A stretch of DNA of 64,000 bases, taken from assembly GCA_028283725.1 (NCBI GenBank), contig JAPWKC010000001.1, positions 248,001 to 312,000 on the forward strand. The letters are read 5' to 3'. The position numbers and the translations under genes were made by a program. Every line of letters starts with the position of its first letter. Position 1 is the first letter of the stretch. The notes under the pieces were generated by a model. It saw only the letters and a list, made by a program, of their open reading frames with translations. It was not told the origin of the DNA and did not search any database. The stretch comes from Neorhizobium sp. (GTDB lineage: Bacteria > Pseudomonadota > Alphaproteobacteria > Rhizobiales > Rhizobiaceae). Of the stretch, positions 906 through 1,978 are shown piece after piece.

Positions 906-1544
906 TCAGGCCTTGGCCGTGGTCTGCGGCATGGGCTTCAGAATATTCATCAGCGCACCATAGGGCAGGAGGAGCACGACGCCGACGATGATCTTGACGG
1001 CGAGATCGCCGAGGGCCCACGAGATCCATCGCGGTGCATCGGTAGCAAAGACGCCGAGGATCGGCGCCCAGCCGGTGGCGAATTCCTCGTTCGCGCCGAT
1101 GAAGGCGAAGGCCGGCGCAAAGGCGAGCGAAAAGAACAGGACCGTGTCGATGACCGTGCCGAGAAGCGAGGCGGTGAGCGGCGCTTTCCACCAGCTCTTG
1201 CGGCGCAATTCGTTGAACACCGAGATGTCGAGCAGCTGGCCGACAAGATAGGCGGTGCCTGAGGCGATCGCGATGCGCGGGGCCGACAGCCAGAAAGACA
1301 GCGCCACGCCGACGACGAAGCCGACAAGGACCACACGGCGGGCGATGGCCGGGCCAAACTGGCGGTTCGTCAGGTCGGTGACGAGGAAGGCGACCGGATA
1401 GGTGAAGGCGCCCCAGGTCAGGAGATCGCCGAGCGCGATGCCGAAGAGCGAGCCGGAGACCGGGAACTGCACGAGAACGTTCGAGGAGACGACGATCGCC
1501 GCCATGAACAGGGCATAGATAAGGGTGTGACGCAGCGTCAGCAT
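906..1544 (-). CDS. VUT family queuosine precursor transporter
   Basis: A 212-residue integral membrane protein of the VUT/YhhQ (COG1738) family, which imports the queuosine precursors preQ0/preQ1. About six hydrophobic segments are visible. Family features include the VSSNVLVQFP segment after the first helix, PVAFLVTDLTNRQFG, and APRIAIAS...LLDISVFNELRR. The ATG at 1544 is chosen because AGGA lies seven bases upstream and translation then begins at MLTLRHTLIYALF. The 3' end converges on the kinase-like gene at 328-894. A candidate preQ1-I riboswitch covers the Shine-Dalgarno and the start codon (see 1541-1570), which agrees with the transport function. Confidence 0.9.
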   Translation of the reverse strand: MLTLRHTLIYALFMAAIVVSSNVLVQFPVSGSLFGIALGDLLTWGAFTYPVAFLVTDLTNRQFGPAIARRVVLVGFVVGVALSFWLSAPRIAIASGTAYLVGQLLDISVFNELRRKSWWKAPLTASLLGTVIDTVLFFSLAFAPAFAFIGANEEFATGWAPILGVFATDAPRWISWALGDLAVKIIVGVVLLLPYGALMNILKPMPQTTAKA

Positions 1545-1570
1545 TTTTTTATCCTGGGTGATGCCACCAG
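1541..1570 (-). promoter_or_regulatory. Candidate preQ1-I riboswitch overlapping the transporter start
   Basis: Read on the minus strand, 1570 to 1541 can form a compact H-type pseudoknot. P1 pairs CUGG (1570-1567) with CCAG (1557-1554). P2 pairs loop bases GCAU (1564-1561) with AUGC (1544-1541), which contains the start codon. A single C (1560) follows the P2 strand and an A-rich tail (AUAAAAAA) joins P1 to P2. This is the layout of preQ1-I aptamers, including the ligand-reading C. The Shine-Dalgarno AGGA (1555-1552) lies partly in P1, so ligand binding would block initiation. The motif is short and P1 has only four pairs, so this is an inference from structure plus the downstream gene. Confidence 0.5.
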
Positions 1571-1594
1571 TTGAGTTCGATGAAGGCAAGAGAA

Positions 1595-1626
1595 AAGGCC
1601 TGTCCGGTATCAACCGATCAAGCCTT
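1595..1626 (-). terminator. Rho-independent terminator after rpmB
   Basis: On the minus strand an interrupted hairpin pairs AAGG with CCTT (outer stem, 1626-1623 with 1598-1595) and CGGT with ACCG (inner stem, 1616-1613 with 1608-1605). TTTTCTCTT follows. It lies directly downstream of the L28 gene and would separate it from the transporter gene. Confidence 0.6.
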
Positions 1627-1681
1627 ACTCAAACCCGGTGGTGTCTGTCGTTCACGCGACCGAGGTCGCGCTTGAAGACAA

Positions 1682-1978
1682 TCAGGCAGCTGCTACTTCA
1701 GCCGTCTTCTTGGCGATCTGGCGACGCAGCAGGCGGGCGCGCATCGACAGGTCGTTCTCGCTGGCCTTCAGGAGGAAAGCGTCGAGACCGCCGCGATGTT
1801 CAACCGAACGCAGAGCGTGCGCGGAAACGCGCAGACGGAAACGCTGGCCAAGAGCGTCGGAAATCAGAGTGACCTGGCACAGGTTCGGAAGGAACCGGCG
1901 GCGGGTCTTGTTGTTGGCGTGGCTGACGTTATTGCCGGTCATAACGCCCTTGCCGGTCAGTTCGCACACACGAGACAT
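1682..1978 (-). CDS. rpmB: 50S ribosomal protein L28
   Basis: A 98-residue basic protein, a structural component of the large ribosomal subunit. The N-terminus [11 protein letters not shown] followed by [14 protein letters not shown] is the L28 signature. The alphaproteobacterial length (95-100 residues, longer than the 78-residue E. coli protein) is matched. The ATG at 1978 starts the conserved sequence immediately. The gene stands alone, with a terminator-like hairpin downstream and about 250 bases of promoter region between it and the divergent DUF3108 gene. Confidence 0.97.

Follow-up and report, generated by a model that had tools for sequence, protein, structure and literature searches.

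A probable preQ1 class I riboswitch that would trap the start codon of the transporter gene yhhQ in Rhizobiaceae

Does the leader of yhhQ in Neorhizobium sp. fold into a ligand-binding RNA that takes up the start codon of the gene itself? The question arises near one end of a stretch of 64,000 nucleotides (assembly GCA_028283725.1, contig JAPWKC010000001.1, positions 248,001 to 312,000; hereafter the window), where an initial annotation, made from the letters alone, had proposed a minimal preQ1-I riboswitch ahead of a queuosine-precursor transporter. Very probably, the element is a type III-related preQ1 class I riboswitch acting on the translation of yhhQ; it would be turned off by preQ1 and would trap the start codon. 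From the sequence, we infer the binding of preQ1, the contacts in its pocket, and the off direction of control. Cited papers are given by PMC number.

The yhhQ leader and its predicted compact pseudoknot

The gene is, as annotated, that of a queuosine-precursor transporter, a protein of 212 amino acids belonging to Vut_1 and TIGR00697. The protein scores below the cut-off of NF008406, has no match among solved structures, and groups with Neorhizobium sequences in a protein tree. The features of the locus are the following.

906–1544, minus strand: yhhQ (QPTR), queuosine precursor transporter, 212 aa; Pfam Vut_1 1.3e-23, TIGR00697 101.9 bits (cut-off 50.95)
1541–1570, minus strand: entire conserved element, 30 nt counting the base that follows the AUG; putative aptamer together with its expression platform
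1567–1570, minus strand: P1 5' strand CUGG; rare variants UUGG and CCGG in relatives
1565–1566, minus strand: L1 (U, G), with a U that is the same in all 33 distinct sequences and matches E. coli U6 in position (PMC10622847)
1561–1564, minus strand: P2 5' strand GCAU, which complements the start codon and adds one further pair
1559–1560, minus strand: L2, varying among relatives (CA, AC, CU, UA, AA, CAA, AU)
1558, minus strand: invariant C, candidate preQ1 specificity base, matching the E. coli specificity C in position (PMC10622847)
1554–1557, minus strand: P1 3' strand CCAG, from the sequence and its relatives
1552–1555, minus strand: Shine-Dalgarno AGGA, half in P1 and half in L3
1545–1553, minus strand: L3 linker GAUAAAAAA, whose last A matches the ligand-contacting E. 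coli A27 in position
1541–1544, minus strand: P2 3' strand AUGC, the start codon plus the first base of codon 2
1586–1632, minus strand: terminator-like hairpin between rpmB and the element, folding z −4.78
1682–1978, minus strand: rpmB, ribosomal protein L28, the upstream neighbour of yhhQ

Read 5' to 3' on the minus strand (1570–1541), the element has the layout CUGG-UG-GCAU-CA-C-CCAG-GAUAAAAAA-AUGC. An H-type pseudoknot is possible within these 30 nt, and its P2 includes the yhhQ AUG. The parts proposed at the outset are all found: the P1 strands CUGG (1570–1567) and CCAG (1557–1554), the loop GCAU (1564–1561) complementary to the AUGC (1544–1541) that holds the start codon, the Shine-Dalgarno AGGA (1555–1552) overlapping the 3' end of P1, and the A-rich L3 (1553–1545). 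One detail had to be corrected: the single C described after the loop strand is a run of three bases (C1560, A1559, C1558) before the P1 3' strand, the last of which, C1558, is the candidate ligand-specificity base. From P1 to the G of the AUG, the fold would span 29 nt and would thus be shorter than the natural E. coli RNA of 36 nt, which has been called the smallest natural aptamer of its family.

A loosened version of the motif, allowing up to three mismatches, has a single match in the window, where shuffled sequences average 0.04. A descriptor with P2 partly free likewise gives one match in the 4.08-Mb genome of origin, at the element itself, and five matches for the reversed control pattern. 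Plain hairpin folding of the element is unremarkable (z −0.86), as it is for the E. coli riboswitch (z +0.80). An alternative hairpin, GUG-GCAU-CAC, appeared in folds and was rejected as the conserved structure: among relatives, its CAC changes to AAC, CUC, ACC or AUC, whereas P1 and P2 keep their strands unchanged.

The terminator-like hairpin is separated from the element by 15 bases (1585–1571). It is not among the reports of a simple terminator scan, and a sigma-70 promoter scan of positions 1450–2250 returned none. The hairpin also bears a weak Rfam likeness to ctRNA_p42d, at 18.8 bits against a cut-off of 50.

Conservation and covariation across the family

The yhhQ protein is present in 281 of the 297 genomes of the GTDB family to which the window belongs. 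Leaders were selected by protein and never by RNA motif; 110 were taken down a ranked protein listing, with some skipped and one genome (G269) contributing two, and a further 40 were picked from protein matches. Of these 150 leaders, 144 carry the element with hardly any change: 108 of the 110 and 36 of the 40. The 36 comprise 34 recognized by the element test together with L438 and L439, whose L2 is three bases long. It also occurs in all 21 Aureimonas genomes, which were found by protein only. Six family leaders are without it (L074, L102, L402, L422, L424, and L423, which holds a decayed copy), as is the leader of genome G091 (L371), read separately. In L423, the decayed element CTGGTTCCATTACCAAGATTAAGAATG stands directly ahead of the yhhQ ATG, in a genome of 1.5 Mb without a QueF match.

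Outside the family, the element is absent, by a strict and a looser test, from 60 leaders (260 nt upstream) of other Hyphomicrobiales families. By eye, several yhhQ leaders of these families (L133–L192) seem to start within the 3' end of rpmB, with no element. A scan of named genomes gave at least 118 stretches matching the element, and the genera named in the record titles of the 80 matches listed include Rhizobium, Agrobacterium, Sinorhizobium, Neorhizobium, Shinella, Mesorhizobium, Phyllobacterium, Brucella, Bartonella, Hoeflea, and Aureimonas. Two stretches were judged chance matches and excluded from all counts, namely L211 (a Desulfuromonadaceae MAG, with an ORF of 10 aa) and L284 (with a different P1 and linker); L248, at a contig end, was left out of the variant rows.

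Over 99 family leaders with distinct 120-mers, the mean information per position amounts to 1.87 bits in the element, 0.20 bits in the 45 nt upstream, and 0.58 bits in the 45 nt of the coding region that follows. A mere chance likeness to preQ1-I, conserved through recent common descent, would agree with the failure of a covariance model trained on gamma-proteobacteria to find the window copy (see below). It is contradicted by the difference between 1.87 and 0.20 bits, and by a range of listed genera that spans Rhizobium, Agrobacterium, Sinorhizobium, Mesorhizobium, Brucella, Bartonella, and Aureimonas; we give it almost no credence.

Since the AUG is the start codon, its three P2 pairs cannot vary within the family, and the test of P2 therefore rests on neighbouring pairs. 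Next to the AUG pairs, in pair 8-31 (window positions 1564 and 1541), G-C and C-G are swapped together with the base after the AUG. Across 163 elements, a GG loop goes with C after the AUG in 97 of 97 cases and a GC loop with G in 26 of 26, and a UC loop is followed by A, C or U, never G, in 40 of 40. Over the 33 distinct sequences, the corresponding numbers are 6, 12, and 15. Six double changes at pair 8-31 are seen over these 33 distinct 30-mers, and none of 500 shuffles reached the P2 covariation score of this set; two of the five covariation measures, pairs with change on both sides and further pair types, were not above shuffles. Of all cells in the 33 sequences, 93.9% are paired, against 25–48% in slid versions, a percentage inflated because the rows were chosen with CAU and AUG fixed. 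The loop type switches at least four times on a tree of 115 proteins; each contrast offers two independent pairs, which agree or are neutral, so few that the independent events fall below what a sign test needs.

P1 is nearly invariant, and its pairing is therefore barely tested. One compensatory case was observed (CCGG/CCGG in L364), and the other variants are two U-G cases and one mismatch. The check for compensatory changes suggested with the original proposal thus comes out in favour of P2, with one pair covarying inside the family and another once the E. coli type joins the comparison, and yields a single case for P1.

Relation to the E. coli type III riboswitch and other known systems

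The structure of the E. coli yhhQ leader, a class I type III riboswitch, has been determined in complex with preQ1 (PDB 8fza); it has the P2 pairs C9-G30, C10-G29, and U11-A28 and base triples made by U7 and C8 (PMC10622847). The pocket shared by class I comprises the specificity C, a U in L1, a closing G-C pair, and an A before the P2 3' strand (PMC10622847). The corresponding bases of the element are invariant over all 33 distinct sequences: the C that precedes the P1 3' strand, the U of L1, the G-C pair that closes P1, and the A on the 5' side of the AUG. The two RNAs are further alike in their yhhQ gene, an H-type pseudoknot with one specificity C, an A-rich L3, and a length of about 30 nt. 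The gene context of class I, upstream of a gene for queuosine-precursor transport, is likewise found.

The UC subgroup has a loop, UUCCAUCAC, that is one base apart from the E. coli loop UUCCCUCAC, with A for C10. Its partner strand has U for G29, so that the E. coli Shine-Dalgarno AAGG reads AAUG, the start codon. P2 thus holds the start codon in the element and the Shine-Dalgarno in E. coli. In contrast to E. coli, the element has a P1 of 4 bp and a Shine-Dalgarno that straddles P1 and L3; the GG subtype of the window differs additionally by a fourth P2 pair, by the absence of UU after P1, and by the lack of U7 and C8. When positions 10 and 29 were left free, 66 of 398 genomes of the phylum matched, compared with 16 for the reversed control pattern. 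Among the 66, 46 are non-alphaproteobacterial and carry C10 (counted from the listing), with G29 in 44 and AAAG in the remaining G877 and G1027. Ten come from the family of the window and carry A10-U29; the other ten, one of which (G700) also has A10-U29, may be chance matches, as the reversed control alone gave 16.

Published marks of type III include UU after P1 and AAGG in P2 (PMC11625349). As the P2 3' strand, AAUG occurs in all 163 elements instead of AAGG; after the P1 5' strand, the window has UG, and UU is found in 40 of the 163. The type III mark AC before the P1 3' strand is present in the window (CAC) and in 122 of 163 elements, the other 41 having CC or UC. By the published marks, the window copy falls outside type III; it is a class I-like pseudoknot that should, from its sequence, work in the same way as type III. 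The preQ1-I identity proposed initially is kept in its class I-like features and amended in type, the nearest known one being preQ1-I type III.

Further comparisons place the element among other riboswitches. Class I type II riboswitches (T. tengcongensis, B. subtilis) share the AC before the P1 3' strand of the window copy, and that of T. tengcongensis also controls translation by hiding initiation signals; type II differs in its intermediate loop size and its other genes, and no start codon is reported in its P2 in the excerpt of PMC11625349. The SAM-II riboswitch of S. meliloti metA is similarly a pseudoknot beside an alphaproteobacterial ribosome-binding site, but has another ligand and uses the Shine-Dalgarno as expression platform, with AUG1 downstream (PMC9373788).

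The Rfam family PreQ1 (RF00522) describes the same class in principle. The scan proposed with this model was run and gave no match over the cut-off in the window or the genome of origin; at gathering and lax thresholds the window holds no preQ1 match, and in the genome a single match, below threshold, lies at another place (15.6 bits, E 2.94). We rejected Rfam as a test, since the solved E. coli type III leader also yields nothing, which makes the scan uninformative. A covariance model of our own (R1), built from 18 gamma-proteobacterial type III sequences and strict at P2, has no match in the window and misses the GG subtype. It matched 14 of 20 relatives weakly (8.5–15.7 bits), each at the element, and 13 of these 14 are of the UC type. 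On four whole genomes, R1 left the element unreported and gave one weak match, elsewhere. For the type III model, the paper cited is McCown 2014.

A literature search on preQ1 in rhizobia and alphaproteobacteria and on start-codon trapping, covering titles, the openings of abstracts, and selected passages, found no description of such an element. The word riboswitch is absent from papers on queuosine in Bartonella, on queuosine in S. meliloti, and on queuosine transporters, and a motif-discovery paper leaves preQ1 and yhhQ unmentioned (PMC8632094). One survey of riboswitch regulons describes preQ1 riboswitches as mostly confined to Firmicutes (PMC3766115), and in the table of another survey Brucella abortus has a single plus, tied by the text to glycine (PMC9495176).

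Proposed mechanism, ligand, and exchange of initiation signals

In the proposed mechanism, P1 (CUGG/CCAG) and P2 (GCAU/AUGC) would stack around one preQ1, whose Watson-Crick face would be read by C1558 before the P1 3' strand and whose edge would be contacted by the first loop U and the A before the AUG, with the A-rich linker lying in the groove of P1. Plentiful preQ1 would stabilize the pseudoknot, placing the AUG in P2 and half of the AGGA in P1; with the AUG hidden, ribosomes could not start and synthesis of the transporter would stop. When preQ1 is scarce, P2 would open and yhhQ would be translated. Repression by the ligand fits yhhQ as an uptake gene for preQ1 or its precursor.

QueF, the enzyme that makes preQ1, scores above 100 bits in all eight of the element-bearing genomes chosen. 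Among the seven genomes found to lack the element, QueF is clear in one (G093), or in two by the bare cut-off, the second being a partial match in G091 (27.9 bits against 27.3) that resembles weak second matches elsewhere and is perhaps a paralogue. The other five have no match, among them G004, G006, G056, G223, and the genome of L423. Fisher's test for one in seven gives 0.0014, a post hoc value with two of the seven genomes from one genus. TGT is present in all 15 genomes.

A conserved RNA of the same fold could instead sense mainly a related ligand, such as preQ0, queuine, or another guanine-like base. Proteins of the yhhQ family can carry preQ0 and queuine (PMC11570991, PMC10622847), and the GG and GC subtypes are without the U7 and C8 bases of E. 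coli. Against this, the class I pocket bases, namely the C, the L1 U, the closing G-C, and the A before the AUG (PMC10622847), are invariant, and the element-lacking genomes mostly lack QueF, with no match in five of seven and a single weak partial one. We judge a related ligand improbable and favour preQ1.

In S. meliloti, the addition of preQ1 rescues mutants in queC and queF, and mutants in queC, queF, or tgt show impairment in nodules (PMC3568095), so that the element gives a testable link to symbiosis. The YhhQ protein of B. henselae imports preQ1 and preQ0 in E. coli, and most Bartonella are reported to be without preQ1 synthesis (PMC11570991). Bartonella nevertheless keeps the element (L210, L218, L267), which fits the sensing of imported preQ1, but weakens the link to QueF.

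The role of the start codon is reflected in two forms of the element. Wherever a G follows CCAG, and AGG is thus present, the yhhQ frame is that of the AUG in the element (139 of 139). The other 24 elements have no G after CCAG and come from all 21 Aureimonas genomes and three other genera. The AUG strand of P2 is kept in all 24, while in 18 of them yhhQ is out of frame with it or lies beyond a stop; the remaining six, in frame, come close to the expectation of one frame in three. By eye, an AUG or GUG lies 8–13 bases after AUGG in these 24, and the AUGGA at the end of P2 may, judging from the sequence, serve as the Shine-Dalgarno of these elements, which lack the upstream one. In Aureimonas, where the reading frame of yhhQ begins further downstream and the usual Shine-Dalgarno has been lost, the P2 AUG is nevertheless retained, which argues that the fold itself holds it.

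These observations also bear on an explanation without a ligand-binding pseudoknot, in which the sequence is conserved as the target of a protein or small RNA, or as a very good translation start. Near invariance over 30 nt does exceed what most helices need, and hairpin folding is no better than in shuffles. The changes that do occur, however, preserve P2 pairing, with double substitution at two pairs, and L2 is free to vary; the AUG strand, moreover, is kept in the 24 elements with another linker, in 18 of which a different frame or an intervening stop cuts yhhQ off from it. Such a target or start site is, in our estimate, slightly less probable even than the related ligand.

Under the riboswitch reading, the two forms would represent two expression platforms, one trapping the start codon and the other, as in E. 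coli, the Shine-Dalgarno. As the Aureimonas rows adjoin Aurantimonas rows of the start-codon kind in the protein tree, the form with a downstream start looks derived. It is likely, with less assurance than for the riboswitch as such, that the element represents a subtype of preQ1-I whose ligand-stabilized helix has the initiator AUG itself as one strand; the preceding base would contact the ligand, and the metabolite would thus be read directly at the start codon. In the lineage of Aureimonas and three other sampled genera, the same P2 strand would have turned into a Shine-Dalgarno, the start codon having moved downstream and the AUG being left unused. The same aptamer would thereby exchange Shine-Dalgarno and start codon, one compensatory base pair from the E. 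coli form.

Two further variants were noted in the leaders. The leader L437 (G102) carries a longer-linker variant, CCAGCGACACCAAAAAAAUGG, with a probable start 13 bases downstream. Directly before the element, at the place of window positions 1571–1576, CTCC occurs in 51 of 85 GG-type leaders and in none of 14 UC-type leaders, and the window itself has CTCAA; a UCC ahead of the element could pair with the GGA of the Shine-Dalgarno.
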